Of a stretch of DNA of 32,901 bases, positions 4,489 to 32,252 are shown one piece after another. Origin of the DNA: an uncultured Clostridia bacterium (lineage in GTDB: Bacteria; Bacillota; Clostridia; Oscillospirales; Acutalibacteraceae); NCBI GenBank assembly GCA_946183545.1, contig CAMHCD010000005.1:1-32901 (forward strand), written 5' to 3'. Below the pieces are notes generated by a model. That model was not told the DNA's origin, made no database searches, and saw only the letters and a list, made by a program, of their open reading frames with translations. The first letter of the stretch is position 1. The number at the start of each line of letters is the position of its first letter. Both the position numbers and the translations under genes were made by a program.

Positions 4489-4502
4489 CGGAGGTAGAAA
4501 AG

Positions 4503-4838: not shown

Positions 4839-4856
4839 TAAAACGGAGGTAATAAT

Positions 4857-5861: not shown

Positions 5862-5877
5862 TAACGGAGGCGGTCGC

Positions 5878-6237: not shown

Positions 6238-6590
6238 GCATTTTTAATACGGTAGGCGAAACCATCAGGCGTTACGGATCTCAGGTCACTATAGTGCAGA
6301 ACGGCGACGAGATCCAAACCAGCGCGTTTGTGGAGCCGCTGCGCTACCGCAACCGAATTTACATCGGCGGTCAGTACCATATGCTGGGCATGAACCGCCG
6401 TCAAAAGTACCTGTATATCGGCAGCGCGTCACACCGCCTGACAGAGAACGCATCCGTTATAGAGTCGCATGGAAACAAATACATCGTCAAACGGTGCGAA
6501 ACCTACTTTATCAAGGATTATCCGCTGTATGAATGGGCGATCCTGCTGCCTTTGGGCGAAAGAACGGAGGATGAGTATGGATCGGATTAA
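6234..6590 (+). CDS. Head-closure / minor structural protein
   Basis: In-frame ATG at 6234 overlaps the previous stop. Beta-rich protein (MSIFNTVGETIRRYGSQVTIVQNG...). The ORF track start at 6198 is probably too far upstream. Confidence 0.55.
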   Translation: MSIFNTVGETIRRYGSQVTIVQNGDEIQTSAFVEPLRYRNRIYIGGQYHMLGMNRRQKYLYIGSASHRLTENASVIESHGNKYIVKRCETYFIKDYPLYEWAILLPLGERTEDEYGSD

Positions 6591-7020
6591 AGAGATGACG
6601 GACGGCATCATCAGGAGGCTTAAGACCTGCCCCGGCTTGGAGGATGTTCGGTTCGTCAGGGAATACGGCGCTCACGACATGGAGGATCCCGTCACCGGCT
6701 GGATGGCCGCGGTAAGGATAACCGGAACAAAGCTCAGCCGTCAGTATTTGGGCGGCTATTTGACTGACGACGTGCGGGGCGACCGTTACCGCGCTACGGT
6801 GGAGCTATGCGTTTATGCTCCCGCTCGGGGGAGCGGAACGGGCCTGTCGGAAAAGGTCAGCGCAGTGCTCGCAGGATTAAAGGCGGCGGACTCCGACCGC
6901 TTGATCACGGATATCAGCGCGTCCGCTATCCGCTTTGATCAGGACTTGCAGGCGATTTACCGCACAGTGACGCTCGGTCTGGACTTTTGTTTGACAGAGG
7001 AGGGGCATCATGCTGTTTGA
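6577..7020 (+). CDS. Tail-completion/terminator-like protein
   Basis: Start ATG at 6577 after an aacggagg RBS. Protein MDRIKEMTDGIIRRLKTCPGLEDVRF..., positioned like a neck/tail terminator. Confidence 0.5.
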   Translation: MDRIKEMTDGIIRRLKTCPGLEDVRFVREYGAHDMEDPVTGWMAAVRITGTKLSRQYLGGYLTDDVRGDRYRATVELCVYAPARGSGTGLSEKVSAVLAGLKAADSDRLITDISASAIRFDQDLQAIYRTVTLGLDFCLTEEGHHAV

Positions 7021-7375
7021 GTTGGCAAAGGGCGTTGACGCTGTGGTGACGCTGGACGGAACGGTACTCGGCGGCGTTTGCGGCGCGGTCGTAAACGAAA
7101 AGACCACGGTCGATAAAATCGAATGTTATCTTACCGATATCCCTGCGGCGCAGATCGTAAGCCGCTCATACGAAATAATCCTGACGCTTGAAACCGCGGA
7201 CTTTGCCGCTTTTGCCGACCGTAGTTTTAATGTGTTGTGCATCAGCTGCGGCGGCGTCACACAGCGGTTTGAAAACGGCGCGGTCAAAAGCGTCAAAACA
7301 GATATTCCTCCTGCCGGGGTCATCAGCCACAAGGTAACGCTTGAAGCGGCGCAAAGGAGTGTTGATCATGAATGA
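7010..7375 (+). CDS. Small structural protein in the tail-tube position (121 aa)
   Basis: Overlaps the preceding gene; beta-rich (DAVVTLDGTVLGGVCGAVVNEKTTVDKIECYLTDIPAAQIVSRSYEIILTLETADF). Family assignment rests on synteny only. Confidence 0.4.
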   Translation: MLFELAKGVDAVVTLDGTVLGGVCGAVVNEKTTVDKIECYLTDIPAAQIVSRSYEIILTLETADFAAFADRSFNVLCISCGGVTQRFENGAVKSVKTDIPPAGVISHKVTLEAAQRSVDHE

Positions 7376-7484
7376 AGAAGAAACACGGTTCCCGTTTGCG
7401 GACTATGACGGTCTTAGCGAGGAACTTGAACTGGAAAGTATACGGTACAGCAGACGTTTGGATGAGGAAGAGGAGGCGGTGTAA
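7368..7484 (+). CDS. 38-aa acidic ORF (MNEEETRFPFADYDGLSEELELESIRYSRRLDEEEEAV), missing from the supplied ORF track
   Basis: ATG at 7368 overlaps the upstream stop; RBS-like aaaggagtgttgatcATG; ends TAA just before the next start. Position matches a tape-measure chaperone. Confidence 0.5.
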   Translation: MNEEETRFPFADYDGLSEELELESIRYSRRLDEEEEAV

Positions 7485-8000
7485 GTGAACCTTAACGCAA
7501 TGAGATACAAGGGTGTGCAGTGGCGGCATAACCCTCGCGAAATAAGCTTTGCCTGTGATAAATACGTCACCGAAAACTCAACGGCGAACGGCAAAGCTGA
7601 GGTACAAAGCACGGGCAGAAGGAACCTGCGAATAACAGGCAAGGGTGAGCTTTACGGCGCGGACTGCATGGAACAGTTTGAACAGTTGTTTGCGCTGTTT
7701 CGCCGGGGAGGAAGCGGTATTTTGAGCATTGCAAAGCTCAGTCCAATATACGCGGTGTTTGAAAGCCTCAAGATCACCGGCAAGCCAAAGCCCGACGTGC
7801 TTACATATGAATTTGTCTTTCGCGAGATGATGGAGAAAAAACGCGCGGAAAAGCCCGTGTGCTGCTATCCCGAGGAAGGCGACCGCCTGTGGGATGTGAG
7901 CTATCGTTATGAAATCGCGGTGGAAACCCTGTTGGAGCTTAATCCCGAGATCAAGCGTCCCGACCTTCCGCTTAACGGAAAGGCGGTCGTGCTGTGCTGA
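7485..8000 (+). CDS. LysM-containing baseplate/hub protein (XkdP-like)
   Basis: 171 aa with a C-terminal LysM-like segment (GDRLWDVSYRYEIAVETLLELNPEIKRPDLPLNGKAVVL). Confidence 0.7.
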   Translation: MNLNAMRYKGVQWRHNPREISFACDKYVTENSTANGKAEVQSTGRRNLRITGKGELYGADCMEQFEQLFALFRRGGSGILSIAKLSPIYAVFESLKITGKPKPDVLTYEFVFREMMEKKRAEKPVCCYPEEGDRLWDVSYRYEIAVETLLELNPEIKRPDLPLNGKAVVLC

Positions 8001-8935
8001 GCTATTACGCGGTCATGCAGGACGGCAGCGAGGTTGAGCTGACGGCGGTGCGTTCCGCGGTCATCGACTGTGATGTTGATGTTCCTGCCGCAAGCGCAAG
8101 GCTGCTGTTATCATATGACGCGCGGCTGAGAAACAACGCGCGTGTGCTGACGGCAAAGGACGGTGCGGATACTGTGTTTTGCGGTGATATAGACAGCATT
8201 GTAAGCGAGGCGGACAGCGGTGGAGCGTCCATGAAGCTATCTGCTCGCAGCGCGGCGTCACGCCTGCTCGACAACGAGGCGGAGCCGCTCGATTACCGTG
8301 ACCCGTCCGCCGAGCTCATTTGCCGCCGCCACGCAAAGCCCTTTGGTTTGATCGTAGCGGACGGGGACAGATCGTACCTGCCTGAGCGTATGCGTATTCA
8401 AAAGGGAATGTCGCACTGGCAGGTTTTGGAGTGCTTTTGCCGCGCCAAGTACAACAGCACGCCGCACGTAAGCGCGGACGGCACGCTGTATCTAAAGGGA
8501 CTGCCGCCCGGCGACACGGCGGTGTTTGACAACAGCGGAGCAGGTATCCCTTACCACTCACTTAAAGAAAGCCGCAACCTTTACCGCCTGCTGTCCGATA
8601 TCCGCATTAAGACAAAGGCAACGGGCGGATACAGCTCGGTCTCGGTAAATCCGAACCCGGGCTGCGGCGGTATCGTAAGGCGCAGATATGTTGATGTGTC
8701 CGCCGATAACCGCTCTATGGATACGGTGCGTCAGATGCTTGACGCAAGCAACCGCAGGGGTTATTTGCTTAGTCTGTCCTGCGGCGGCTGTTGTACGCAT
8801 CTGGTCGGAAGCTCCGCCGAGGTGCGCGACACTGTGCTCGGTGTGATATCCGACTTGACCGTGTCGGGGGTCAGATACAAGGCGAACAGCGGCGGCGAAT
8901 TTTCGGAAATTACATTTAAAAAGGAGAAGTTTTGA
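7994..8935 (+). CDS. Phage late control gpD-like baseplate hub (XkdQ-like)
   Basis: 313 aa; gpD/gp27-like features (SARSAASRLLDNEAEPLDY..., GMSHWQVLECFCRAKYNSTPHVSADGTLYLKG). Overlaps its neighbours. Confidence 0.7.
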   Translation: MLSYYAVMQDGSEVELTAVRSAVIDCDVDVPAASARLLLSYDARLRNNARVLTAKDGADTVFCGDIDSIVSEADSGGASMKLSARSAASRLLDNEAEPLDYRDPSAELICRRHAKPFGLIVADGDRSYLPERMRIQKGMSHWQVLECFCRAKYNSTPHVSADGTLYLKGLPPGDTAVFDNSGAGIPYHSLKESRNLYRLLSDIRIKTKATGGYSSVSVNPNPGCGGIVRRRYVDVSADNRSMDTVRQMLDASNRRGYLLSLSCGGCCTHLVGSSAEVRDTVLGVISDLTVSGVRYKANSGGEFSEITFKKEKF

Positions 8936-9264
8936 TGTGGTTGATGAGTTACATGACAAAGAATTCCATCGAAAAGCCCTCTGCGGTCAAAGGCAGCGTC
9001 GGTCACGGCGCGGAGGGTACGACCGTGACCGCGTCGGGAGAGCATAAAAACCTGCCCTGCTGTTTTCCCTACGGTATTGTCAGCATACCGCCCGAGGGTC
9101 ACAGCGCTGTCGTGCTTCCGCTTGAGGACGGCGAGGTAGCGCTTGGGGTCACCGATAACTCCGCGGCGGTCGAGCCCGGAGAGGTGGCGCTGTTTTCCAA
9201 GGGAGGAGCGTCGCTTGTCCTGAAAAACAACGGCGACGTAGTAATAAACGGGCAGGTGTTTTGA
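8932..9264 (+). CDS. Baseplate spike/puncturing protein (gpV/Gp45-like)
   Basis: 110 aa OB-like plus spike end (VEPGEVALFSKGGASLVLKNNGDVVINGQVF). Confidence 0.65.
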   Translation: MMWLMSYMTKNSIEKPSAVKGSVGHGAEGTTVTASGEHKNLPCCFPYGIVSIPPEGHSAVVLPLEDGEVALGVTDNSAAVEPGEVALFSKGGASLVLKNNGDVVINGQVF

Positions 9265-9584
9265 TGCGCGACATAAAACTTGAAAACGGAGATGTGTTTG
9301 TTGACGTTACAGGCGGCTCCGTGCTGCTTAGCGAGGAGGAGTCCGCTGTTCAGCGCGCGCTGATACTTGCCGGAGCGCACAGGGGCAGTTTTGTTTATAA
9401 CCGCAGCCTCGGCTCGGACTACCGTCCGGAAATGGATGAAATGCAGGCGGAAGCGGTCATAAACGAGGCGTTTGCAGATGACGAAAATATGTATATCCGT
9501 GTGTCGGAAAGCGGTGAAGCTCTTATAGTCGATATCCCGACAAAAAACGGATCAGTGCAGCGGGAGGTGCATTTTTACGGATAG
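9261..9584 (+). CDS. Baseplate wedge gp25/gpW-like protein
   Basis: 107 aa between spike and baseplate J (SVLLSEEESAVQRALILAGAHRGSFVYNRSLGSDYR); starts in overlap with the upstream stop. Confidence 0.65.
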   Translation: MMRDIKLENGDVFVDVTGGSVLLSEEESAVQRALILAGAHRGSFVYNRSLGSDYRPEMDEMQAEAVINEAFADDENMYIRVSESGEALIVDIPTKNGSVQREVHFYG

Positions 9585-9606
9585 TTACGAAACAATATAC
9601 AACAGG

Positions 9607-10635
9607 ATGAAGGCGGACTACACCGAGCGCAGCGGAGTGGTGTTTGACGAGGCAAGCGATATAGCGATAAAGCTCAGGGTGCTGGCAGGAGAGATATTCA
9701 ACGCCTATTCACAAACCGAGTGGCTAAAGCGTCAGATGTTCGCCTCCACCGCTACGGGCGAGTTTTTGGATCATATCGCCGAGCAGCGCGGACTAACGCG
9801 CCGGGCCGCGACAAAGGCTCAGGGAACCCTGACCTTTTCCGTTAACGAAACAAAAAGCTACCCCGTAACGATCCCCTCGGGAACGGTAGTGGCAACGACA
9901 GGCGCACAGCCTGTTAGGGTATACACTACCGAGGATGCGGTGTTGCCGCTCGGTACACTGTCGGTGGACGTCAGAGCCGAGGCGGAGCTGGCGGGCTTCG
10001 GCGGCAATATTTTGATAGGCACCGCGACCGTACCGGTCAGCATGCCTGCCGAGCTTGACAGCGTCAGAAACCGGAGCGTATTTGAGGGCGGCGCCGACAC
10101 CGAGGCGGATAATTCGCTGCGTAAGCGGATCAAGGATACCTACTACTGTGTGCCTAACGGCATGAACAAGGCGTATTACATTCAGCTTGCGCAAAGCGTT
10201 GACGGTGTTGACAGAGCCGGAGTTGTTACCTATGCTCGCGGCGCCGGTACTATCAACGTGTATGTTAACAGCTACGACGGTACCATCGGTCAGGCGGTCA
10301 TTGACGAGGCAAGGGCGCTAATCCTGCGCAACCGCGAGATCAATGTAGATGTTGAGGTGCTGCCGGCGGTCGGCACAAGCTACGACATGGCTGTTACAGT
10401 TGAGGCTAAGGCAGGCTACACCGCTCAGGAGGTGCGCGAGCTTTGCACGAACGCTTTTGAGGAATATCTAAGCACCATTCCCTTGGGCGGCACGCTTTAT
10501 CTAAGCGCCCTCGGCAAATATCTGCTGGATACGGATTGCATTGAAAACTATGTGTTCGACATGTCGATGAGCAACATGACCGCCGCAGGCTCGCAGTTCT
10601 TTATAAGCGGCGACGTTGATATCGAGGTGACCTGA
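9607..10635 (+). CDS. Baseplate J-like protein
   Basis: 342 aa; AEQRGLTRRAATKAQGTLTFSV...VTIPSGTVVATTG...GFGGNI is typical of the baseplate J family. Confidence 0.92.
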   Translation: MKADYTERSGVVFDEASDIAIKLRVLAGEIFNAYSQTEWLKRQMFASTATGEFLDHIAEQRGLTRRAATKAQGTLTFSVNETKSYPVTIPSGTVVATTGAQPVRVYTTEDAVLPLGTLSVDVRAEAELAGFGGNILIGTATVPVSMPAELDSVRNRSVFEGGADTEADNSLRKRIKDTYYCVPNGMNKAYYIQLAQSVDGVDRAGVVTYARGAGTINVYVNSYDGTIGQAVIDEARALILRNREINVDVEVLPAVGTSYDMAVTVEAKAGYTAQEVRELCTNAFEEYLSTIPLGGTLYLSALGKYLLDTDCIENYVFDMSMSNMTAAGSQFFISGDVDIEVT

Positions 10636-16596: not shown

Positions 16597-16893
16597 TTAC
16601 TGAATGTCGAGATAATTTGAGAAGCCTGTGATCCTCAGGATCTCCATCACCTTTTTGTTGACGTTCCTGATCGTAAGCCCGTCCTTGTCGCTGAGCAGGT
16701 CGTTGGCGTTGAGGATAGCTCTCAGCGCGGCGGAGCTGACATACTCTACGCCTGCCATATCCAATATCAGGGTGTCGTTAGCGTCGCACAGCTCGGTGAT
16801 TTTTGTTTCAAATGCTTCGACAGTGACATGGTCGATCTTGCCCTCCGGCGCGATGACCTGCTTGCCGTTTTCTTCATAAACATTAATTGTCAT
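16597..16893 (-). CDS. STAS-domain protein (SpoIIAA/RsbV-like anti-sigma-factor antagonist)
   Basis: 98 aa; NVYEENGKQVIAPEGKIDHVTVEAFETKI...DTLILDMAGVEYVSSAALRAILNA with Ser at the usual phosphorylation site. RBS AAAGGAG; overlaps the CapA-like gene. Confidence 0.92.
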   Translation of the reverse strand: MTINVYEENGKQVIAPEGKIDHVTVEAFETKITELCDANDTLILDMAGVEYVSSAALRAILNANDLLSDKDGLTIRNVNKKVMEILRITGFSNYLDIQ

Positions 16894-18079
16894 TTGTTTT
16901 CTCCTTTGTATCTGATTCTCTCAGCAGATCGCTGAGGATTTGGTTACCGACTTCATTGAATTCCTCGTTGCGAAGGAACATCTGTATTCCGAGCAGATGA
17001 CTCCGCGAGTAGGAGGCTTTTAAATACTCCGCGAACTCCGAAGGGGAGAGGGACGCGCGTTTTTCATCGTCTGTGGGGTTCTTTCCGCGCAATGCCCAGA
17101 AGAAGGTGGTCATCCAGTTGGCGCAGTCCCTGCCGAAGCCTTCCTCAAATTCCTTTGCGGCGGCTTCGTCGCCTGCGATCAGCGCGTCGTGGGTCTTGCT
17201 GCGTGCGTAAAATGCTTCAAGCTCCTGCTTGTCGTCGTAGACGCAACCTTTTTCGGTGCGGAGGATGCGGTTAGGCTTTACGGTGAAGCCGTCGTCGCCG
17301 AAATCAAGCTCCAGCACCAAGCCTTCGGCAAGCAGCGGCGTGACCTGCGGACGGAAGTGAAAGCAGAAGTTGCCCTGACCGTAGAGGAAGTACGCGCCGT
17401 TGTAGCGCTCCTCCTCGCCGATTGCGTGGGTATGCTGTGATATGACTACGTCTGCGCCGTTATCCGCCATGCGACGGAAGCGCCGGCGCATGATATCGCT
17501 GTTATAGTGCGTCCCCTCAATACCGCCGTGATAGAACACGATAAGATAGTCGCAGGACTCTTTAAGGGCATTGATCTCGCCGAGGACGCGGTATTCGTCG
17601 TAGAGGTTCACGCCGGGACGATCCTTTTCGGGCGCGTTCTCAAACCGTTCGGTGGTGTTGTATAGGACTATCCTCCTGCCGCCGTGCTCGATGGTGACAT
17701 AGCTCTTGACCGAGCTTTCGTTATCGCCCCAGCCAAAGTATCCGATGCCGTTGTCGTTGAGCGTCTTGCAGGTGTCGCGGTAGCCCTGTACGCCGTAGTC
17801 CATCGAGTGGGTGTTGCCGAGGGTGGCGTAGTCGATGCCGAGCGCTTTGATCCCCTTGATCGTAGCGGTCGGCGCGTGGATAGCGGGTCCGATCTTCTCA
17901 ATCGGGGTGTCGCTGTCGGTAAAGCAACCCTCAAGGTTGCATACGCGATAGTCTGCGGACGCAAACAGCTCGCACAATCGGTCGCCGAACAGCGCTTTGG
18001 CGTCTCCCGCGCTGAACAGGTCATAGTTGCATAGCATCGGAAGCGTATCGCCTGCGATGATTATTTTCGTTTTTGCCAT
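16883..18079 (-). CDS. CapA-like metallophosphatase family protein
   Basis: 398 aa; KIIIAGDTLPM, YRVCNLEGCFTDSDTPIEKIGPAIHA, ATLGNTHSMDYG, DYLIVFYHGGIEG, ADVVISQHTHAIGEEERYNGAYFLYGQGNF are PGA_cap/CapA motifs. Confidence 0.85.
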   Translation of the reverse strand: MAKTKIIIAGDTLPMLCNYDLFSAGDAKALFGDRLCELFASADYRVCNLEGCFTDSDTPIEKIGPAIHAPTATIKGIKALGIDYATLGNTHSMDYGVQGYRDTCKTLNDNGIGYFGWGDNESSVKSYVTIEHGGRRIVLYNTTERFENAPEKDRPGVNLYDEYRVLGEINALKESCDYLIVFYHGGIEGTHYNSDIMRRRFRRMADNGADVVISQHTHAIGEEERYNGAYFLYGQGNFCFHFRPQVTPLLAEGLVLELDFGDDGFTVKPNRILRTEKGCVYDDKQELEAFYARSKTHDALIAGDEAAAKEFEEGFGRDCANWMTTFFWALRGKNPTDDEKRASLSPSEFAEYLKASYSRSHLLGIQMFLRNEEFNEVGNQILSDLLRESDTKEKTNDN

Positions 18080-18087
18080 ACTGCCTC

Positions 18088-19785
18088 CTAAAAATCCTTT
18101 GTGACCGTCAGAACATTCTGATGGTCGATGTATTCATAGCTGACGTCGCTCATCAGCTTTTTAACGATATATATACCGAGACCTCCTCGGCGGCGTTCGC
18201 TCAGCGGCAGGGTCACGTCGGGATCCTGCTTGCGGAGAGGATCAAACGGCTGACCGTTGTCCCTGAATATGAGCGTCATGCGGTTGTCGCGGCATTTTGA
18301 CTGTATTTCAACGTTGCCGCCGTTTTCGTAGGCGTATGAGTCGAGGTTGGAGAGGATCTCCGAGCAGGCGATGGTTATCTGACCGACTGTCTCCTCGTCG
18401 CAGCCCGATTCAAGGCAGCAGGCTTCGATATAACTCAACACGCTGTCGAAGGATTCTTTATTCAGGAAAAATGTTTTGCTCTTCATAGGTTCCACCTTGA
18501 GATATTCCTTAAAGAAGAGGGTCAGGATAGTGGCGTCGTCGTAGTGAGCTCCGCCGTCTTCAAAGTTATCGACGGCAGAGCGGATGGTGTGTACCAGCTC
18601 CGAGGGCTCCTGATCGCTCGCATAGCGGATAAGCGTCAGCAGTTGTTCGTCGCCGAAGAAATCCTCATCCGGAGACTGCGCCTCGGTAACGCCGTCGGTG
18701 TATAGGATCAGCTTATCTCCGGCGCTGAGCTTGATCTGCTCCTCGGTAAAACTCACCCTCCTGCGCCTGCCGAGCACAAAGTTCGGTACGCTTTGCAGAT
18801 AATCGGTCTCGCCGCCTGAATGTATCAGGATTGGCGGATTGTGACCAGCGTTGGTGTAGGAGAGTATGCCGTTTGTCAGATCGAGAATACCTATCCATCC
18901 GGTGACGAACAGCTTTTCGGGATTCGACTTTTGCAGATATCGGTTGACATTCGCCATGACCTTGTCGGAAGGATAGCCTGCCTGAGCGTAGACCTTCAAA
19001 AGTGTTTTTGTCAGCGTCATGAACAGCGCAGCCGCCATTCCGTGACCGGATACGTCGCCGATCACAACGGCAATGTGGGTATCGTCAACGGTGAAATAAT
19101 CATAAAAGTCACCGCCGACCTTCGCGGCGGGCGTCATATCGGCGCATACCGCGTAGGAGGAATGATCGGGAAAATCCGTAGACAGGAAGCCTTCCTGGAT
19201 ATTGCGGGCGGTTTCAAGCTCCGCTTGGTTAGTGATCGTCTCTGCAATCAGCTTGCCCTGCTTTATCGCGTGTCTTTGACCGCCGATCGAGAGATAGATC
19301 GACACTATCATCAGCGCGGCGCCTATGATCATAAGCAGCGAGTGGCTTCTGAGAATGAGAATAACATTCTCGTCGGAGAAATTAAAAGCAACAGGGATAA
19401 ATCTCAGAATATTGTTGTCGATCATGTTATCGGCGTTGTAGTATGATGTCGTAACACTTAAAATGATTACATACATCAGAAAGAAGCCTATGACCGACGA
19501 TATCACTGTCAGGTGAGGTCGGTAGTAGAAGCTGTTAAGCAGGGGGATCAGGATGAACAGCGCCGCGATAGTGTCCGTATAGCCGCATAGCATATAGGTC
19601 GAGTACAGTATCACTGCATTGTTCAGATACATGATCCAAGTATAACACTTTTTGCGGAAAATGATGTTTATCGCGATGCAGACCGTCATAGCGATAACGG
19701 GGGAAACTCCAAAGTAAAAGCGCGAATCATCCCAGTCGTTGAGCAGGATATAGAGCAGTACCGCTGCCGTGAATGAGATCATCAA
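18088..19785 (-). CDS. Membrane PP2C/SpoIIE-type phosphatase with C-terminal RsbW-like HATPase domain (N-terminus unresolved)
   Basis: 565 aa; hydrophobic N-terminal half, PP2C motifs (AKVGGDFYDYFTVDDTHIAVVIGDVSGHGMAAALFM, AGDKLILYTDGVTEAQ), HATPase motifs (ACSEILSNLDSYAY, FRDNGQPFDP, GGLGIYIVKKL). Confidence 0.9.
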   Translation of the reverse strand: MMISFTAAVLLYILLNDWDDSRFYFGVSPVIAMTVCIAINIIFRKKCYTWIMYLNNAVILYSTYMLCGYTDTIAALFILIPLLNSFYYRPHLTVISSVIGFFLMYVIILSVTTSYYNADNMIDNNILRFIPVAFNFSDENVILILRSHSLLMIIGAALMIVSIYLSIGGQRHAIKQGKLIAETITNQAELETARNIQEGFLSTDFPDHSSYAVCADMTPAAKVGGDFYDYFTVDDTHIAVVIGDVSGHGMAAALFMTLTKTLLKVYAQAGYPSDKVMANVNRYLQKSNPEKLFVTGWIGILDLTNGILSYTNAGHNPPILIHSGGETDYLQSVPNFVLGRRRRVSFTEEQIKLSAGDKLILYTDGVTEAQSPDEDFFGDEQLLTLIRYASDQEPSELVHTIRSAVDNFEDGGAHYDDATILTLFFKEYLKVEPMKSKTFFLNKESFDSVLSYIEACCLESGCDEETVGQITIACSEILSNLDSYAYENGGNVEIQSKCRDNRMTLIFRDNGQPFDPLRKQDPDVTLPLSERRRGGLGIYIVKKLMSDVSYEYIDHQNVLTVTKDF

Positions 19786-19886: not shown

Positions 19887-21623
19887 TTATTCGTACGCTA
19901 TAGCAACGTTTGTAACGTTGAAGCCCAGTATGCGGTTATAGTTGATAGACGAGCTGAGCATACGTACAAGCTCCAGACCGGTTATATGCTTGCCGGAGTT
20001 GTCAATATAGTCGGTGGGATCAAATTCCGCGCCGTTGTCGCGCAGGCGGACGTTGACCTTGTCGGGCAAAACGCGGACGCATACGTCGACGGAGTTGTTA
20101 GAATCGGATCTTGCGTAGGTCGCGATATTGTGACAAAGCTCCTCGACCGTAACGCCGACCATGTTGACGGTGGCTTCGGGCACTTTGTTCTTTTCGCAGA
20201 ACGTCATGGCTTCCTCGGAGGCGAGTATAGCCTCGGGGATCTCGTTCTTTATGGAGAAGTCGTATACCACGCCTTCTTCCTCCTCAATACCGAGGATGTT
20301 CTTTTTGTGCTTTGCTTTTTTGCTGATGATCATTGCGATCAGGGTTATGATGACCGTGACCGCCTTGGATACCGGGAAGGATACCCACAGCCAGTAGATG
20401 TCATACTGCGCGAACCAGTACATCAGCGGAACGATGGTAAGCACGCCGTCGAGCATAACGAGAAGGTTCGCCAGCCCCCGTTGCTTGGTTGCCTGGAAAA
20501 ACGTTCGCATAACGTAAATGACCGCCAGTATCGGGATATTGATCGAGAATATTCGGAAGGTCACCGCGAATATATCGACGGTAGACGGGTCGGTAAGTCC
20601 GTATAGCGCGGCGAGCTGTACCGGTATCACCTCGGAGATTATCAGAACAAAGACCGACAGCATGACGGTGACGATCATGCCGTAGCGAAGCGTCAGGCGC
20701 TGACCGTTCGAGTCTTTTTCGCCGTATAGCGCGCCGAGTATCGGAAGCAGCGTCATGGACGCGCCTTCGACCAAGATAAACGCAAGGCTGTTGAGCGAAA
20801 AGGAGACAGAGGCGATCTGTCCGCCGATAACTCCTGTCGAAGAGAGGATGATAGCGTTGGTGAAAAACAGCCTGAGAAAGTTGCAGACATAGATCAGCGC
20901 GGAGGGGAGACCAACGTTGAAGATCTTGCCGAGCTGTTTTAGCTGACCCCATGCTGCCTTGGTGAAATGCACCGTGCGCTTAGGGGATCGGAAGTAGATT
21001 ATGGTTATGAGGATGCCGACGACATAGCCGGTCACAGTCGCCCAGCCTGCTCCCGCAATGCCCCATCCGAAGATAGCCATATAGATGTAGTCGCACAGCA
21101 GGTTGATCACATTTGCGACTATCGGCAGGAAAACAGCGAACTTTCGCAGTCCGTCGGTGCGCGCGTAGGCGGCGGTCTCGTTGACCGCGGCTACCATCGG
21201 GGTGAGCACCCACAGCGGCAGCAGATACTGAATTACGAGCTCAACGAGCTGTTCCTTGCCCTGAGCGAGCAGCCGGGCGGTCGGCGCCATCAGCATAATA
21301 CCGATCAAAGAGATTATGGCGGTCGATACTATGCCTGCCCAGAACGATAGCGTAAACACCGTGTCGGCGGACTTTTGGTCGCGCTTGCTCTTGTAGATGA
21401 CCGACAGCGTGTTGCCGCCGAAGGTGAACATAGCGATCGGGATACTGCGGAGAAATACGACTGATGTCGTCAGGTTGATCGCGTAGAGCTCTACGGTGCC
21501 GAGGATCTGACCGACCATGATCCCGTCGAGAATACTCGACAGATAGGTGGAGGCGGTCATCGCGAGCGTCGACACCAGCAGCGCCCGGTATTTTTGGTTT
21601 AATAAGATTCCGTTTCGTTTCAT
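19887..21623 (-). CDS. MATE-family efflux transporter fused to a C-terminal RsbW-like HATPase domain
   Basis: 578 aa; MATE N-terminal region (LLVSTLAMTASTYLSSILDGIMVGQILGTVELYAINL), then HATPase-like VGVTVEELCHNIATYA...VRLRDNGAEFDPTDYIDNSGKHITGLELVRMLS. Confidence 0.9.
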   Translation of the reverse strand: MKRNGILLNQKYRALLVSTLAMTASTYLSSILDGIMVGQILGTVELYAINLTTSVVFLRSIPIAMFTFGGNTLSVIYKSKRDQKSADTVFTLSFWAGIVSTAIISLIGIMLMAPTARLLAQGKEQLVELVIQYLLPLWVLTPMVAAVNETAAYARTDGLRKFAVFLPIVANVINLLCDYIYMAIFGWGIAGAGWATVTGYVVGILITIIYFRSPKRTVHFTKAAWGQLKQLGKIFNVGLPSALIYVCNFLRLFFTNAIILSSTGVIGGQIASVSFSLNSLAFILVEGASMTLLPILGALYGEKDSNGQRLTLRYGMIVTVMLSVFVLIISEVIPVQLAALYGLTDPSTVDIFAVTFRIFSINIPILAVIYVMRTFFQATKQRGLANLLVMLDGVLTIVPLMYWFAQYDIYWLWVSFPVSKAVTVIITLIAMIISKKAKHKKNILGIEEEEGVVYDFSIKNEIPEAILASEEAMTFCEKNKVPEATVNMVGVTVEELCHNIATYARSDSNNSVDVCVRVLPDKVNVRLRDNGAEFDPTDYIDNSGKHITGLELVRMLSSSINYNRILGFNVTNVAIAYE

Positions 21624-21637
21624 TTTAAGCCGGCTCC

Positions 21638-24600
21638 TTATCTGGTCAGGTTGTCCTGACGGAAGAACAGGAAGCCGCGCAGAACGTTGATAAAGTCGTT
21701 TACATACTTTTCGTTGCTGGCGTTCCAGAAGAATCCGAGACGGGCAAGGATCTGGGTGGTGTAGTGAGAGTTACAGTTGAGCGCGGTGATCTTCTTGCCG
21801 TGGGCGGTGTTCATGTAGGCGGTCATGCTCGAGAGGATGGCTGCCTTGTCGGGATCCTGCTGGGCTTCGTTCAGCGCGTCACGGAACACCTCGTATTCAA
21901 CAAATTCGATATTCGATCCGCTCTTGTTCATCTGACGGATGATATCTCCGAGCGGAAGGGTGTGGTTGTTTACGGCGTTGAATACGCAGCATTCCCTCGG
22001 GGTCTTGGCGAGCTTTAAGAAGGCTTCGCAGGAGCGGTCGATCGGACCCATGCAAACTTGGTTTTCGATCATCGCGTAGGGGAAGCAGCCAAGCAGACCG
22101 TAGGAACGCAGACGACCCATAAAGTTGTTTGTCAGGAAGTTGATCTGGAACTCGCCGTCGGACTCACGCGCGGCAAGGGTGCCTACGCGGATGACCTTGC
22201 CGTCAAGACCTTCGGTTACCGCTTCAAGGAGCTTTCGCTCACCCATAAGCTTTGAGGAAGTGTATTTATTATCGAGCGTCTGACCGTAGTAGAGCGACTG
22301 TTCGTCGAGCTCTCTGCGGCTGAGCTTGGTGACGTCGTCGGTAGTACCGGCAACGGAGATCGTGGAAAAGTGGATCAGGCGCGCATCGATCTTTTTGCAC
22401 AGCTTGATACAGTTGACGACACCGCCGACGTTGATGTCCTCGATGTCGGTTCCGTTGGAGAAGTGCTTGACGTTCGCGGCGCAGTTGAATACCGTGTCAA
22501 CGTCCATCTTCTCAAACGGTTCAAAGGAGGCGTAGTCTGTGACGTCGCCGTTGAACACCTCAACGCGTTCGCGAATAGCGTCGTCAAGGTCGCCGCCGAA
22601 GTAGTAGTACATTATGTTTTCAAGGCGTTCCTTGGCGGTGTCGAACTGACCGCGGCGGATCATGCAGTACGCCTTGCCGGTTTCGTTCTTTAAGAATTCC
22701 GCAAGCAGATGAGCGCCCATGTAGCCGATAGCGCCGGTGATCAGTACGTTTCCGAGCTCGCGCATTTCACCGGACTTAAAGGAGTCTACATTGTTCTTTG
22801 CAAGAACGTCGTTGATCGCGGTGTAGTCGTAGTCGTCAAAGTCAAACAGCTTGTTGGTGTCGTTGACCTCGCCGTCCTTAAAGAGCTCCGCAAGCGCGCG
22901 GGGCGTGGTGTATTTGAATACGTCGCCATAGGTTATCTCAAAGCCGTTTTCGGACGCGTCAAGTACCACAGAGGTTACGATAAGCGAGGTGCCGCCGATC
23001 TCAAAGAAGTCGTCGGTAGCGCCTACCTTGTCAAGCTTCAATACCTTCTTGAAGGATTCACAGAAGAATTCCTCGGTCTTGTTGGCGGGAGCTACATATT
23101 CGCCGAGGCTTACCGGTACCGGCTCGGGGAGCTTCTTGACGTCGGTCTTGCCGTTTGCGGTGATGGGCATATCGTTCATTTGCAGATACGCCGTCGGCAC
23201 CATATAGTGGGTCAGGTGCTTTTTCAACTCGTCGCGAAGTGAGTCGATGTCGATCTCCCTGTCGGCGGTGAAGTAAGCGCACAGATTGTCCTGACCGTTT
23301 AATTTGCGGATGATAACAGCTACTTTTTTGATGTGCGGCTGAGCGGCAATAAGACCTTCGATCTCGCCGAGCTCGATGCGCAGTCCTCTCAGCTTGACCT
23401 GGTTGTCCAGTCTGCCGAGGATATAGACGTTTCCGTCCTTGTCCCACTTGGCGTAGTCGCCCGAGCGGTACATGCGCTCACCGTTGTAGGTGACAAAGGC
23501 TTCGGCTGTCTTTTCGGGCAGATTGCGGTAGCCGCGGGCTACGCCCACGCCGCCGATATACAGCTCGCCGATAACTCCGTACGGAGCCGGATCGCCGAAC
23601 TTGTCAACGATGATCTCGTGGTAGTTGAGCAGCGGCCTGCCGACGGTGACATAGTCGGCGTTTGTCAAATCAGCCGCGTTACAGGACACGGTGATCTCGG
23701 TGGGACCGTAGGTGTTGACTATGCTGATAGTGTCGGAGCATTCCTTTATGCTGTCTCTCAGTGACATCGGATAGCCCTCGCCGCCGGACATAACGAGCTT
23801 GCATTTCGACAGCGCTTCCTTGAACGGAGCGTAGTCCATGTACTGCTGTAAACGCGAGGGTGTGGCGTTAATACAGTCAACGTCGTATTTCGCCATCAGC
23901 TCCGCGAGCGCACGGGGATCGTTCATCTCGTCCTCGCCGGCGAACACCAGCGTCTTGCCGTTGCAGAACGCGGCGGTGTGCTCCTTGAAGGACATATCAA
24001 AGGAGATGGTGGTGACGCTGAGATAGGTGGATACGTTGTGTTTTATATGATACATATGGATGTTTGCCGGGTGGGGCATAAGGTAGTTGCAAATACCCTT
24101 GTGGCGCAGCATAACGCCCTTGGGTTTTCCGGTCGAGCCGGAGGTATAGATCATGTAGCTGAGTTCATCATCACTCATCTCTACGTCGGGGTTAGAGGTG
24201 TTGTCGCCTATCAGTATATCGGCGACGTTGATAGCTTTTTCGGCAGGATAGTCCGCAAGCTTGTCCGCGGTGGTGATGATGAAGGAGGCTTCGGAATCGG
24301 TGATTATGTGGTTGATCCTGTCGGCAGGATATTGAGGATCGCAGGGGATGAACGCCGCGCCTGCCTTGTTGACGCCGAACATACAGCTAAAGAAGCAGCT
24401 CTCTCTGGGCAGCAGCAGGGCAACGCTGTCGCCGGTCTTGATGCCCTTGCCTATCAGGTTGTGGGCTACGATGTTTGCGCTTTCGTTGAGCTCGCGGAAG
24501 GTGAGTGTCTTGTCCTGAGCGATCAGTGCCGTTTTGTCCGCGTTTTCCGCGGCGGCTTTCTCAAACAGCTTGTGCAGCAGGGTTACGGTCGGTTCCTCGG

Positions 24601-27580
24601 TTGCCGCTGTTTTGAAGCTGTCGAGCTTCTCCTGCTGATCGGCAGGCAGCTCCAGCGCGTGGCGGACGGTCATGGCGTCGCCGGAGAGCAGCGAGATAGT
24701 GTGCCTGATCTGACCGATGAAGTTTTCGATAACAACGTCGTCGAACAGCTCGGAGGAATACTGTACCATAAAGTGCAGACCCTTTGCTCCCTTGCGGATA
24801 ACTATTCCGATGTCGCGGCTCATCTTCTGGAGCGGAGCGTATAGCTCAACGCTCAGACCGTTTTCTTCGTAAGCGGGCGGATTCCACATGAAGTTTACGC
24901 TTACGTCAAAGATCGGGTTGCGTGATTCGTCGCGCTGCTTTACAAATTCTGCAACGACCTCCTCAAACGGCAGTGAAGCGCCGTAGGTCGCGTTGCGGAC
25001 AGCCTCGCTTACGGAGACGAGATAATCGGAGATCGCGGCGGCTCTTGTGGGCTTTACACGCACGGGCGCGGTGTTGACGAACATACCGATCACATTGTCC
25101 GCGTCGTTCGGGCGCATATTGGTCGGGATGCCGAGGACAACGTCCTCGGAAGCGGTATATTTGCCCAAAACCATCGAAACGGCGGAGAATATCAGCTCGA
25201 ACTCGGTCACGCTGTAGCGGCGCGCTGTGTTGTCAATGGCTTTGAGTTCTTCGTTGTTGTAGTCAAAGGTGATCTCGCGGTCGGAAAGGGGATGGACCTT
25301 CGGACGCTTGCCCTTGACGGGCATTTCGTTGACGGGTACGCCGTCTTTGAACAGCTCCTTGTAGAATGCCATTCCGCTGTCGTGCTTGTCCTCGACGCTG
25401 TCGTCGTAGAGGTCGGAAAGGTCGATCTCGGATGCGGTGACCTCGTTGCCGTTCAGTCCCTCTATCAGTTCGCTGACAAAGGTCTTTGCGGAGCCGCCGT
25501 CAAAGGCGATGTGGTGGATAGCGAGGTGCAGGATAATACTGCCGTCCGATACGGTGTACAGCGTCGGGCGTACGGGGATGCCGGTGTTAAGGTTAAACGG
25601 CTCTGCGTAGCTGTCGATGATCGCAATGACCTCCTCACGGCTCTCGGCTGTCTTTTCGACGATCTCGGGGAGCTTGTCCGAAAGGATGCGGACGGGCAGT
25701 CCGTTTTCCTCTCCGTAGTAGGAGGTAAACGCCTCATGCGCCTTGAATACGGCGTTGAGCGAGGCTTTGACGGTCTCGATATCTGAGCCCTTGATGATGG
25801 CGGCGATGTTGAGATTATATACTGTGGAGTTCTCGTTGAGCTTTTGCTCAAGGTACATTCCGCGCTCGAAGGGAGTAAGCGGATAGACTCTGGATTTTTT
25901 GCTTTTCTTGACGCGGGCTTTCGCGCTTGCCTTCTTGATAAGCAGGCGTTCTATCATGCGCGGAGACTTGCCGGCAAATATATCGGCGGTAGAAATCTTG
26001 TATACGCCGCATTTTTCGGCGACCATAGCGCACTTGATCGAGTCGCCTCCGAGCGCAAAGAAGTCATCGTCCACGCCGACGTTCTCAACGCCGAGGACGG
26101 CTTCAAACGCGGAGCAGAGAACTTTCTGCATATCGGTTTCGGGAGCGATGTATTCGTTTTTGAAGCTGCCTGCTTCGGGAGCCTGCAAAGCGTTTCTGTC
26201 GAGCTTGCCGTTTGCGTTGACTGGCAGCTTGTCGAGCTTAACAAAGAACGCGGGGATCATATATGACGGGAGCTTTTCGCTGATTGCGGCTTTCAGATCC
26301 TCCGGGTCTACGGGAGAATCCTCCACATAGTAGGCTACCAAATAAACCTGATTGTACTGGTTTTTAAAGTCCTTTAACGCGGCGTCGCGGATGCCGTCGG
26401 TATTCTTGATGATGGCTTCGATCTCGCCGGGCTCTACGCGCTGACCGTTGATCTTGACCATCCAGTCCTTGCGGTTGAGGAAGAGGATGTTGCCGTCGTC
26501 AAGGCGTTTTACGATATCGCCGGTCTTGAGCATCGTGTCAAAGCCGTCGCGCTCCTTGAAGGGATTATCGACAAAGGTTTTTGCGGTCTGCTCCTCAAGG
26601 TGCAGATAGCCGTCGGAAAAGATACCTGAAAGGCAGAGCTCGCCTTCTTCGGCTTCTTTGCCGTTTTCGTCGAGGATATAAGCGTGCACGTCGCCGAAGG
26701 GCTTGCCGATCGGCGTGTTGTCAAGGGGCTTCTCTATCTTATACGCCAGTACCGCGCCTGCGGATTCGGTCTGACCGTACATGACGTAGATCTCGTATTC
26801 GTCGCTGTAGATGTTCGATACTCGTTCACTGCCGGTAAAGACATATTTCAGCGAATCGCCCTTTTGCTTGAAAACGCGCAGCATCTTTGGGCTGATGAAG
26901 GTACGGTTGATTTGATTATCGTATATATAGTCCGCCAGCAGCACAGGATCGCGCATTGCTTCAAACGGCATGAGGTATGCCGAGATAAGCGCGCACAGCG
27001 GCGCAAAAACGCCCTGTACCGACGCGACAAAGGTGAACGGCGCGCCGAGCGCGGCACGGCTGCCCTCGGGAACGTTATTATAGTTGATATAGCGCATGAC
27101 GGAGTCGCAGATGCCGGCGTGTGAATGCAGAACTCCCTTGGGTTTTCCGGTTGAGCCGGAGGTGTAGATCAAGAGCGAGGGGTCGGTAGGATCGGGGTAG
27201 ACTATCTCTTCGATCGGAGCTTCTTTATCGATCCCTCTCAGGAACTTTTCATTGATAGTTGCCTTTGCCTGACAGTTCTCACGAATATACGCAAGACGAT
27301 CCTCGGGGTAGGTAGGGGATAGGGGCGCAAAAGCCGCGCCGACCATCCATACGGCGTACATCGAAGCGATGTATTCCTTGTTGCGCGGCAGTTCAATAGT
27401 TACGAAATCACGTCGCGAAACCCCAAGCCGGCTGAGCTTTGAGGCTATCCTGCGAGCCGCAAGATCAAATTCTTTGAATGTGTAAGCGGTGTTTGAAACG
27501 CTGTCGTTGATAATAGGAAAGTCAGGGTGTTCTCTGACGTTCTGAACAATTCTTTTCATAATGCCATCCATGGGTATCAC
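21638..27580 (-). CDS. Dimodular nonribosomal peptide synthetase, A-T-C-A-T-reductase
   Basis: 1980 aa. A1 LLIYTSGSTGKPKGVLHSH, YGQTES, ANGKLDR; T1 DDFFALGGDSIK; C HHIAFDGGS; A2 MIYTSGSTGKPKGVMLRH, NTYGPTE, YRSGD, ANGKTD; T2 DDFFEIGGTSL; terminal NAD(P)-dependent reductase NVLITGAIGYMGAHLL, HFSTISVAG, YTSSK. Confidence 0.96.
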   Translation of the reverse strand: MIPMDGIMKRIVQNVREHPDFPIINDSVSNTAYTFKEFDLAARRIASKLSRLGVSRRDFVTIELPRNKEYIASMYAVWMVGAAFAPLSPTYPEDRLAYIRENCQAKATINEKFLRGIDKEAPIEEIVYPDPTDPSLLIYTSGSTGKPKGVLHSHAGICDSVMRYINYNNVPEGSRAALGAPFTFVASVQGVFAPLCALISAYLMPFEAMRDPVLLADYIYDNQINRTFISPKMLRVFKQKGDSLKYVFTGSERVSNIYSDEYEIYVMYGQTESAGAVLAYKIEKPLDNTPIGKPFGDVHAYILDENGKEAEEGELCLSGIFSDGYLHLEEQTAKTFVDNPFKERDGFDTMLKTGDIVKRLDDGNILFLNRKDWMVKINGQRVEPGEIEAIIKNTDGIRDAALKDFKNQYNQVYLVAYYVEDSPVDPEDLKAAISEKLPSYMIPAFFVKLDKLPVNANGKLDRNALQAPEAGSFKNEYIAPETDMQKVLCSAFEAVLGVENVGVDDDFFALGGDSIKCAMVAEKCGVYKISTADIFAGKSPRMIERLLIKKASAKARVKKSKKSRVYPLTPFERGMYLEQKLNENSTVYNLNIAAIIKGSDIETVKASLNAVFKAHEAFTSYYGEENGLPVRILSDKLPEIVEKTAESREEVIAIIDSYAEPFNLNTGIPVRPTLYTVSDGSIILHLAIHHIAFDGGSAKTFVSELIEGLNGNEVTASEIDLSDLYDDSVEDKHDSGMAFYKELFKDGVPVNEMPVKGKRPKVHPLSDREITFDYNNEELKAIDNTARRYSVTEFELIFSAVSMVLGKYTASEDVVLGIPTNMRPNDADNVIGMFVNTAPVRVKPTRAAAISDYLVSVSEAVRNATYGASLPFEEVVAEFVKQRDESRNPIFDVSVNFMWNPPAYEENGLSVELYAPLQKMSRDIGIVIRKGAKGLHFMVQYSSELFDDVVIENFIGQIRHTISLLSGDAMTVRHALELPADQQEKLDSFKTAATEEPTVTLLHKLFEKAAAENADKTALIAQDKTLTFRELNESANIVAHNLIGKGIKTGDSVALLLPRESCFFSCMFGVNKAGAAFIPCDPQYPADRINHIITDSEASFIITTADKLADYPAEKAINVADILIGDNTSNPDVEMSDDELSYMIYTSGSTGKPKGVMLRHKGICNYLMPHPANIHMYHIKHNVSTYLSVTTISFDMSFKEHTAAFCNGKTLVFAGEDEMNDPRALAELMAKYDVDCINATPSRLQQYMDYAPFKEALSKCKLVMSGGEGYPMSLRDSIKECSDTISIVNTYGPTEITVSCNAADLTNADYVTVGRPLLNYHEIIVDKFGDPAPYGVIGELYIGGVGVARGYRNLPEKTAEAFVTYNGERMYRSGDYAKWDKDGNVYILGRLDNQVKLRGLRIELGEIEGLIAAQPHIKKVAVIIRKLNGQDNLCAYFTADREIDIDSLRDELKKHLTHYMVPTAYLQMNDMPITANGKTDVKKLPEPVPVSLGEYVAPANKTEEFFCESFKKVLKLDKVGATDDFFEIGGTSLIVTSVVLDASENGFEITYGDVFKYTTPRALAELFKDGEVNDTNKLFDFDDYDYTAINDVLAKNNVDSFKSGEMRELGNVLITGAIGYMGAHLLAEFLKNETGKAYCMIRRGQFDTAKERLENIMYYYFGGDLDDAIRERVEVFNGDVTDYASFEPFEKMDVDTVFNCAANVKHFSNGTDIEDINVGGVVNCIKLCKKIDARLIHFSTISVAGTTDDVTKLSRRELDEQSLYYGQTLDNKYTSSKLMGERKLLEAVTEGLDGKVIRVGTLAARESDGEFQINFLTNNFMGRLRSYGLLGCFPYAMIENQVCMGPIDRSCEAFLKLAKTPRECCVFNAVNNHTLPLGDIIRQMNKSGSNIEFVEYEVFRDALNEAQQDPDKAAILSSMTAYMNTAHGKKITALNCNSHYTTQILARLGFFWNASNEKYVNDFINVLRGFLFFRQDNLTR

Positions 27581-29473: not shown

Positions 29474-30748
29474 ATGAAGCTCAATCAAATAAAAAACAGC
29501 GATATATTTTCCCGAAAACTGACGCAGCTATACGGCTCTTGCGGTGACAGGCTTTCGCGTCAGACAGAGCGGTACCAAAATGCCTTAGATCGATTCTTTG
29601 AGATATTCAAGGGTGCAGACGAGGTCGATATTTTTTCCGCTCCCGGCAGGACGGAGATCGGCGGAAACCACACCGACCACCAGCGCGGCTGTGCGTTGGC
29701 GGCTGCTGTTGATCTTGATATCATAGCAGTAGTTTCTTTTAACGACGGCGGCGTGATCCGCGTGTACTCGGAGGGTTACGGCTTCAGCGAGGTCAAGCTT
29801 ACGGATCTGTCCGTACATGATGATGAAAAAGGCAGCTTTACCTCGCTTATACGCGGTGTAGCGTCAAGGTTTATTGATATGGGCGTACATATCGGCGGAA
29901 TCGATATGTACTGTGTATCCGATGTGCTTTCCGGCAGCGGATTGTCGTCCTCGGCGGCTTTTGAAACTCTGCTGTGCGCTGTTATCAATACAAAATATAA
30001 CGGCGGCATGGCTGACCCGATCGAAACGGCAAAGATCGGCAGGTACGCGGAAAACGTGTATTTCGGCAAAGGCAGCGGATTGCTGGATCAGCTTGCGTGC
30101 GCTGTGGGCGGGCTTGTGTTTATAGATTTCAAAGACGAGGAAACGCCGTATGTAAAAAAGATAGATTTTAACTTTGACAGCGCGGGATACGACCTGTGTA
30201 TAACGGATACGAAGGGCAGCCACGCCGGCCTTACTGACGACTATATCTCGGTGCCCGAAGAAATGAAACAGGTCGCCCGGTTTTTTAACAAAGAAGTTTT
30301 GAGAGAAGTTGACGAGGAGAGCTTTTATAACGCTATACCGAAGCTGTACGGCGTATGCTCAGACCGCGCGATACTGAGAGCCGCGCACTTTTTTAAAGAA
30401 AACGAACGCGCCTTTTTTGAGGCTAAGGCGCTTGAAGAAAATGATATCGAAAAGTTTTTATGCTTTTACAAACAGTCCGCCGGATCGTCGTCGGAGCTCC
30501 TGCAGAATTTATATTCCGCAAAATATCCGGAGAATCAAGGGATACCGCTCGCTATTATGATGAGCAGGCTCGTTTTGGGCGATGACGCCGCTGTCAGAGT
30601 CCACGGAGGCGGCTTTGCCGGTACGATACAGGCGTTTGTTCAAAAAGAAAAGACAGATGAATATATACAGAAGATGAACGCGCTGTTCGGCAAAGGAAGC
30701 TGCCGCGTGCTTTATATCCGTCCGACAGGACCGGCCAAGGTGATTTAG
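29474..30748 (+). CDS. galK: Galactokinase
   Basis: 424 aa; FSAPGRTEIGGNHTDHQRG (galactokinase signature), SDVLSGSGLSSSAAFE (GHMP motif), VRVHGGGFAGTIQAFV. Confidence 0.95.
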   Translation: MKLNQIKNSDIFSRKLTQLYGSCGDRLSRQTERYQNALDRFFEIFKGADEVDIFSAPGRTEIGGNHTDHQRGCALAAAVDLDIIAVVSFNDGGVIRVYSEGYGFSEVKLTDLSVHDDEKGSFTSLIRGVASRFIDMGVHIGGIDMYCVSDVLSGSGLSSSAAFETLLCAVINTKYNGGMADPIETAKIGRYAENVYFGKGSGLLDQLACAVGGLVFIDFKDEETPYVKKIDFNFDSAGYDLCITDTKGSHAGLTDDYISVPEEMKQVARFFNKEVLREVDEESFYNAIPKLYGVCSDRAILRAAHFFKENERAFFEAKALEENDIEKFLCFYKQSAGSSSELLQNLYSAKYPENQGIPLAIMMSRLVLGDDAAVRVHGGGFAGTIQAFVQKEKTDEYIQKMNALFGKGSCRVLYIRPTGPAKVI

Positions 30749-30758
30749 GAGGTGCGCA

Positions 30759-32252
30759 ATGATTTGTGAGCACATACAAAGACTGATAACTTATTCAATC
30801 AAAAACGGATTGATAGACAAAGCGGACGAGATAGTTATCCGCAATATGCTTATGGACGCTCTGCGTGTATACGACTGGCAGGATGCGCCGGTAGGCAAAG
30901 CGGAGGAGTGCATCGACGACATATTAAAACCGCTTGTTGATTTTGCCTGCGATAATGGCGTTATAGAGGACACAGTCGCAAACAGAGATTTGTTTGACAC
31001 AAAGCTTATGGGCATAGTCACTCCTCTGCCGCGGGACATTATACGTGAATTTGAAAAGCGTTATTCAATCTCCCCGGCGAACGCCACGGACTGGTATTAT
31101 GATAACAGCAAAAAGCTCAACTACGTCCGCGCGGGCAGGATAGCAAAGGATCTTAAATGGACGTATGATTCGGACTTCGGCACCCTTGATATCACGATCA
31201 ACCGCTCAAAGCCCGAAAAGGATCCGCGCGATATCGAAAAGGCGCGGGCGACAGCCTCAACAGCATATCCAAAATGCCAGCTTTGCGCTGAAAACATGGG
31301 CTTTGCCGGAAACCAAAATCATCCCGCAAGGCAAAATCTTCGCCCGATCCCGGTAGAAATAGGGGGCGGCGAGTGGTATCTGCAATACTCGCCCTACGGT
31401 TATTATAACGAGCATTGTATCGTGTTCAACAGCAAGCATATCCCTATGGTGATCGACGCCGATGTGTTCAAAAAGCTATTTGATTTTACACATCGTTTTC
31501 CGCATTACTTTGTCGGCTCCAACGCCGATCTGCCGATAGTCGGCGGCTCTATCCTTTCGCATGAGCATTTTCAGGGCGGCCGCTACACCTTCGCTATGGC
31601 TAAGGCGGAGGAAGAGTATAAATTTACAATGCCTGAGTTTGCGGGTGTTGAAGCGGCGACGTTAAAGTGGCCGATGTCCGTCATCCGCCTGCGCTCAAAG
31701 GACAAAGAAGAGCTTTGCAAAGCCTGTGCGAGTATACTTGAAAAATGGCGTTTTTATACGGATGAAAACGCCGGGATATTCGCCTTTACCGACGGGATCC
31801 CTCACAACACGATAACCCCTATAGCCCGTATGAAGGATAACGAATTTGAGTGTGATCTTGTACTCAGGAATAATATCACGTCTGAGCAAAGACCGCTCGG
31901 AGTGTTTCACCCCCGTCCTTCGCTCCATCACATAAAGAAGGAGAACATAGGACTTATCGAGGTAATGGGGCTGGCGGTGCTTCCCGCAAGGCTTGCCACA
32001 GAGCTTGAAAAAGTTAAGACCGCTCTGTTGAATGATGTTGACTTGAGAGATGACCCAAGCACGCTGAGCCACGCCGGCTGGGCGGAAGAGATACTCAAAA
32101 ATCACCCCGAGTTTGATGAAGATAACGCTATGGATATCATCAAAGAAGAAGTCGGCAAGGTGTTTGAAGAGGTGCTTTGCGACGCCGGCGTGTTTAAGCG
32201 CGACCAAAAGGGTCAAGAGGCGTTCAAAGCCTTTATAGCTTCGTTAATATAA
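30759..32252 (+). CDS. galT: UDP-glucose--hexose-1-phosphate uridylyltransferase (GalT class II)
   Basis: 497 aa; CQLCAENMGFAGNQNHPARQNLRPIPVEIGG, PYGYYNEHCIVFNSKHIPM, GSILSHEHFQGGRYTFAM. 10 nt after galK. Confidence 0.95.
   Translation: MICEHIQRLITYSIKNGLIDKADEIVIRNMLMDALRVYDWQDAPVGKAEECIDDILKPLVDFACDNGVIEDTVANRDLFDTKLMGIVTPLPRDIIREFEKRYSISPANATDWYYDNSKKLNYVRAGRIAKDLKWTYDSDFGTLDITINRSKPEKDPRDIEKARATASTAYPKCQLCAENMGFAGNQNHPARQNLRPIPVEIGGGEWYLQYSPYGYYNEHCIVFNSKHIPMVIDADVFKKLFDFTHRFPHYFVGSNADLPIVGGSILSHEHFQGGRYTFAMAKAEEEYKFTMPEFAGVEAATLKWPMSVIRLRSKDKEELCKACASILEKWRFYTDENAGIFAFTDGIPHNTITPIARMKDNEFECDLVLRNNITSEQRPLGVFHPRPSLHHIKKENIGLIEVMGLAVLPARLATELEKVKTALLNDVDLRDDPSTLSHAGWAEEILKNHPEFDEDNAMDIIKEEVGKVFEEVLCDAGVFKRDQKGQEAFKAFIASLI

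Follow-up and report, generated by a model that had tools for sequence, protein, structure and literature searches.

The question raised by this locus is what an RsbW-like domain does on the end of a membrane exporter. The window, that is, the whole stretch of 32,901 nucleotides analysed from an uncultured Clostridia bacterium, contains on its minus strand an ORF with an ATG start that encodes 578 amino acids (19887-21623(-)). Pfam assigned to this same ORF a MATE transporter and a C-terminal HATPase_c_2 domain (residues 468-563; E=1.9e-9, with a score of 38.0 bits where 27.4 is the cut-off). The features of the gene and of its operon are collected in Table 1.

Table 1. Features of the fusion gene and of the surrounding operon, in coordinates of the window.
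Feature	Coordinates	Strand	Evidence
NRPS, A-T-C-A-T-reductase, 1980 aa; directly precedes the fusion gene, 14 bp apart	21638..27580	(-)	Pfam/NCBIfam
MATE (MOP superfamily) transporter part of the fusion, residues 6-437	20313..21608	(-)	Pfam MatE x2, fold, profile
RsbW/SpoIIAB-like HATPase_c_2 tail, residues 450-578; predicted to be a degenerate kinase or a pseudokinase on which STAS docks	19890..20276	(-)	Pfam, profile, model, Foldseek
N-box EELCHN (E494-N499), Glu495 and Asn499 retained	20127..20144	(-)	Alignment
G1-like RDNGAEFDP (R528-P536)	20016..20042	(-)	Alignment
Degenerate ATP-lid region, residues 543-552, without the GG of canonical GGLG	19968..19997	(-)	Alignment
Membrane SpoIIE-type PP2C with C-terminal canonical HATPase_c_2	18088..19785; PP2C ~18517-19086, HATPase ~18097-18456	(-)	Pfam SpoIIE 1.1e-49, HATPase_c_2 8e-20
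PGA_cap/CapA-like protein	16883..18079	(-)	Pfam 6.9e-45
Single-domain STAS protein (RsbV/SpoIIAA-like), Ser53-Ser54 in YVSSAALR	16597..16893	(-)	Pfam STAS 2e-14, TIGR00377 over cut-off

The structure prediction that had been proposed as a check was run for the fusion protein alone. With an 88-row alignment as input, AlphaFold2 produced a model of high confidence in two parts (mean pLDDT 88.8, pTM 0.81), a helical MATE core and a C-terminal beta-alpha-alpha-beta-beta-alpha-beta-beta domain of the RsbW/SpoIIAB type. The Pfam match, the confident model and this fold bear out the original prediction of an RsbW-like domain fused to a MATE transporter. An assembly or frame artefact was ruled out as the source of the fusion, since full-length orthologues with 63-92% identity are found in dozens of independent assemblies, including that of the isolate Ruminococcus sp. 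FC2018. A chance motif match in the tail was discarded on the basis of the Pfam score above the cut-off, the structure model and a profile match to RsbW, and a curiosity of one genome by the finding of fused proteins across the order, class and phylum. The dN/dS ratio was about 0.06-0.12 for the tail and 0.07-0.12 for the MATE part, indicating purifying selection on both.

The transporter part was matched by MatE in two stretches (Pfam, E=5.2e-15) and modelled as all-helical with a pLDDT of ~90. Its nearest fold is PfMATE, with 6fhz as the best Foldseek match, and the best sequence-profile match is DinF-BH 5c6o (E=1.7e-75). Asp33, kept in 77/88 alignment rows, corresponds to the ion-site Asp in TM1 of DinF-BH (D40 position; Asn in 5c6n), a residue with an established ion-coupling role in the MATE family. 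Another acidic residue of the pump, Asp178, is conserved in 74/88 rows. Judged from its sequence, the pump part is an ordinary DinF-like MATE in which the ion-site Asp is conserved. Among the fold matches was also 4z3n, a structure of ClbM, which is likewise a MATE associated with a product of NRPS-PKS origin. To our knowledge, DinF-BH, PfMATE and ClbM all lack a GHKL tail and linked genes for STAS or PP2C.

The tail modelled alone reached a pLDDT of 93.7 and a pTM of 0.89. It matched RsbW 6m36 by profile (E=7.5e-6), and its top Foldseek matches were SpoIIAB:SpoIIAA, RsbW:RsbV and UsfX:RsfB, so that its closest folds (SpoIIAB, RsbW and UsfX) have been solved in complex with STAS anti-anti-sigma partners. 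Sigma-factor complexes of SpoIIAB and UsfX were also among the fold matches (1l0o, 8jzt). The NCBIfam RsbW equivalog cut-off was not reached by the tail (17 bits vs 145).

The ATP-site residues of the domain were compared in an alignment of 98 fused tails (44 of the window subfamily and 54 divergent ones) with 83 other HATPases of the same loci. The three motifs quoted in the original prediction are all present in the ORF: EELCHN, RDNGAEFDP (containing D529 and G531) and GKHITGLELV (containing G549). The third is not a proper G2/ATP-lid: where neighbouring HATPases have GGLG, the window has ITGL, and the fused family shares this loss, the lid GG being missing from nearly all tails. The full canonical set of ATP-site residues was found in 0/98 MATE tails vs 79/83 neighbouring HATPases, the latter comprising PP2C-fused (39/40 and 11/11), STAS-fused (7/7) and stand-alone domains (9/11 and 13/14). 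Among the divergent tails, the N-box Asn is kept in 34/54; at G1, Asp is kept in 42/54 and Gly in 22/54, the Gly being replaced in 32/54, by Cys in 23/54, and this Cys characterizes one large clade. In clade c2, the Mg-binding Asn and the adenine-binding (G1) Asp are both lost in 10/10 members. Residues invariant or nearly so across the family are F475, C476, E494, E495, R528, P536, G549, Y562 and N569, which, as aligned, do not simply trace the ATP pocket.

One reading of these data is that the tail is an active STAS serine kinase, with the pump sensing its cargo or ion state and setting STAS phosphorylation accordingly, as a transceptor with a STAS-dependent signalling output. It is consistent with the RsbW-like fold and with Glu495, Asn499, Asp529 and Gly531, invariant in 44/44 orthologues of the window subfamily, which suggests that nucleotide binding is kept there; ATP binding or weak kinase activity is possible in this subfamily. 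The four pocket residues are also kept in most members of the NRPS-linked clade, several of which (L043, L189, L194) have nevertheless lost the Asn. Because the canonical lid is absent family-wide and Asn and/or Asp have disappeared from whole clades, catalysis cannot account for the general role of the tail, and the gene next door already encodes a canonical kinase domain. The "kinase" of the original prediction therefore finds no support as a rule for the family, and an active kinase is considered rather unlikely.

The genes around the fusion follow the minus-strand order NRPS - MATE/HATPase - SpoIIE(PP2C+HATPase) - CapA - STAS. The NRPS, the PP2C with its second HATPase, the conservation of the operon and the depth of the family go beyond the original prediction. 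The HATPase borne by the SpoIIE protein has the canonical residues and matches RsbW 6m36 by sequence (E=1.4e-6); the phosphatase and the canonical HATPase kinase of a partner-switching module are thus both predicted within the one gene. The operon also holds a predicted STAS protein with a phosphorylatable-type Ser, the second Ser of its motif being kept without exception in the STAS domains of loci of this type (95/95). An NRPS adjoins the fusion gene in orthologous loci too. The closest NCBIfam model of the window NRPS is AusA (aureusimine), which has the same A-T-C-A-T-R architecture, with a score far below the cut-off (1011 bits vs 2500). We know of no pairing of AusA with such a pump. The CapA-like protein (16883-18079(-)) showed weak similarity to the model of the lasso-peptide epimerase MslH. 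Outside the operon, prophage-like genes were found at 2367-10635 (+), with portal (weak), capsid and baseplate J homologues, as well as galactokinase and galactose-1-phosphate uridylyltransferase genes at 29474-32252(+).

A scan of 84,980 species genomes for window-type loci gave 49 loci with the fusion, titled Ruminococcus, Clostridiales or Clostridia and mostly from rumen MAGs, FC2018 being included. All five genes in the window order were present in at least 23/49, and contig ends cut many others. In a second locus group, with a pump ~64% identical, the order is STAS-NRPS-MATE/HATPase-SpoIIE or the STAS gene lies elsewhere in the cluster. The CapA-like gene was co-conserved with the operon in the first group only and was not found in the second.

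Searches at the order, class and phylum levels retrieved 54 divergent fused proteins, most of which share 17-30% identity with the window protein. In the MATE tree, one branch (SH-aLRT 95) split 59 fused from 24 unfused transporters, a small unfused sample in a tree for which no root was inferred, and the tails split from other HATPases likewise in their own tree (support 89). Given this small sample and the unrooted tree, the split is compatible with a single origin of the fusion. The window fusion falls in a 14-row clade (support 99), almost all members of which lie directly beside an NRPS gene.

Some related architectures were also observed. In the window's own genome, a second locus of this kind, L199 on contig C102 (4298-7380(+)), has the order PP2C - stand-alone canonical HATPase - MATE; this MATE runs off the contig end and is closest to fused MATEs (36% to L171). 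Loci L196, L197 and L200-L202 were left out of the counts, as they encode PP2C+HATPase proteins without the MATE fusion. Such proteins of ~950 aa form a separate conserved architecture (L200 78-2951, L202 6805-9657, L174 16069-18915), with STAS genes near in L200 and L174. STAS...HATPase proteins recur beside fused pumps (L039 7233-8825(-), also L040, L041, L045, L046, L164 and L168), the one in L039 having an APH-type phosphotransferase domain between STAS and HATPase.

The tie of the GHKL/RsbW-like tail to STAS, also part of the original prediction, was found again in gene linkage, both in the window and family-wide. At least one gene for STAS, SpoIIE-type PP2C or another HATPase lay within 5 kb of 38/54 divergent fused MATEs vs 1/20 unfused MATEs of the same genome set (Fisher p=4e-7, an optimistic value for a small control, since the fused loci share ancestry). 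Separately, STAS was within this distance in 25/54 loci, PP2C in 30/54 and another HATPase in 25/54. With only 1-4 STAS genes in each genome counted, random placement would give a far lower STAS figure. Clades differ in their gene order, so the linkage either arose anew or survived rearrangement. No partner-switching gene was found within 5 kb in 16/54 fused loci; STAS was present elsewhere in 12/12 genomes checked, a set that took in most of the genomes with an unlinked fused MATE, and SpoIIE-type PP2C in 11/12. An NRPS neighbour is not proposed as a family-wide trait, as linkage in the divergent set as a whole was not significant (10/54 vs 2/20); it is mainly a property of the window's clade. 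In two loci, the gene adjoining the fused pump encodes STAS and an NRPS condensation-type domain in one protein (L195 2825-4444(+), L198 6251-7888(+)). These two operons also have PP2C, and the condensation motif HHxxxDG reads HxxxDG there.

A neighbouring sigma factor, as the obvious output of a switch, was looked for near the fusions and not found: among the matches listed for 26 genomes, no SigB/F/G-type gene was within ~14 kb of a fused locus, and none of the matches listed was on the window's own contig. Elsewhere in the window genome, at least one sigma factor of the SigB/F/G type is encoded. This result bears on a second reading, that the tail is a membrane-tethered anti-factor sequestering STAS, sigma or another factor, with the pump as anchor or sensor and transcription as the output. 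Such a role is suggested by the anti-sigma factor domain family to which the tail belongs and by the SpoIIAB and UsfX sigma complexes among its fold matches. However, besides the lack of a linked sigma gene in those matches, the kept ion-site residues and the direct coupling to the NRPS gene make a mere anchor unlikely, and this reading is judged distinctly improbable.

With a phosphatase, a kinase, a STAS protein and a STAS-docking-type domain present and no listed sigma gene near, the most straightforward interpretation is that the switch has the pump's docking domain as its output, with STAS binding controlling export. Fused pumps adjoining phosphatase, kinase and STAS genes suggest that the switch controls export directly, not transcription. 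The tail would then be a STAS-docking pseudokinase through which the partner switch gates the exporter or recruits the NRPS to it, to which we give about an even chance. Gating by STAS binding had been suggested in the original prediction and is the reading now preferred. The fusion would be a working MATE exporter with a cytoplasmic RsbW/SpoIIAB-derived tail, having largely lost catalysis and providing a STAS docking site. The SpoIIE-type membrane PP2C would strip phosphate from STAS, and a canonical RsbW-like kinase, in the window the C-terminal half of the SpoIIE protein, would phosphorylate it. Dephosphorylated STAS would dock on the tail and open the pump, close it or draw the NRPS towards it, and the switch would lead to export of the NRPS product instead of sigma-factor release. 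By analogy with AusA, the cargo may be a reductively released dipeptide-type product. We infer STAS docking from homology, and the direction of its effect and the identity of the cargo are also inferred; STAS could act on some other target.

The STAS-condensation fusions of L195 and L198 suggest that the enzyme may be brought to the exporter by docking. Taken as the main role, the tail would be a docking platform, on which STAS binding brings the biosynthetic enzyme to the exporter for substrate channelling and phosphorylation times the assembly. There is a precedent, since the cereulide transporter CesCD tethers the condensation domain of the NRPS CesA to the membrane, through CesC (PMC7527721). 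As proposed here, a transporter is tied to an NRPS via a condensation domain, but CesCD is an ABC transporter without a STAS/HATPase adaptor (PMC7527721). The STAS-condensation fusion occurs in two loci only and the STAS of the window is free-standing, and a platform role of this kind is regarded as very unlikely. A vestigial tail without function, simply carried along with the pump, would agree with the degenerate catalytic residues in much of the family, but it is hardly credible for a domain retained over deep divergence at low dN/dS, with Y562 and N569 invariant or nearly so and with linked partner genes.

The preferred reading, a STAS-docking pseudokinase on the pump, can be compared with known systems. 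Partner switching uses a phosphatase, a kinase, a STAS protein and a STAS-docking-type domain; it is best known for controlling sigma factors, and of its other outputs several have yet to be identified (PMC8256260). The window operon resembles the Bacillus RsbW/RsbV/RsbU and SpoIIAB/SpoIIAA/SpoIIE systems in its RsbW-like HATPase, conserved-Ser STAS and SpoIIE-type PP2C. In contrast to them, the locus is without a sigma factor, and of its two HATPases one is degenerate and sits on a transporter, the other on the phosphatase. In E. coli, the STAS protein MlaB binds an ABC transporter that needs it, and a phosphomimetic at the STAS phospho-site weakens MlaB-MlaF binding (PMC7367683). In that system, STAS binds a transporter through the face holding the phospho-site (PMC7367683), although the partner is an ABC ATPase and not a MATE, the NBD is bound and not a GHKL domain, and no MlaB phosphorylation was shown.

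In the open-access literature, no description was found of a MATE-HATPase fusion or of partner switching on a MATE pump, nor of STAS with a condensation domain or a gut NRPS with a MATE. The architecture itself is very probably listed in domain databases, and novelty is claimed for the system described here, not for the sequence. It is put forward tentatively, at somewhat less than even confidence, that a STAS/PP2C/kinase switch acting directly on a MATE via a fused pseudokinase receptor is a widespread, previously undescribed signalling class in Bacillota-type bacteria, which would place the export of NRPS and other products under phospho-control without transcription, with some lineages docking the NRPS itself. 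If this is true, a transporter that bears the receptor domain of the switch itself would be a direct non-transcriptional output of partner switching. Secondary transporters, lacking an ATPase that could be regulated, would come under a new form of control, and in common rumen bacteria the making of natural products would be linked to their export.
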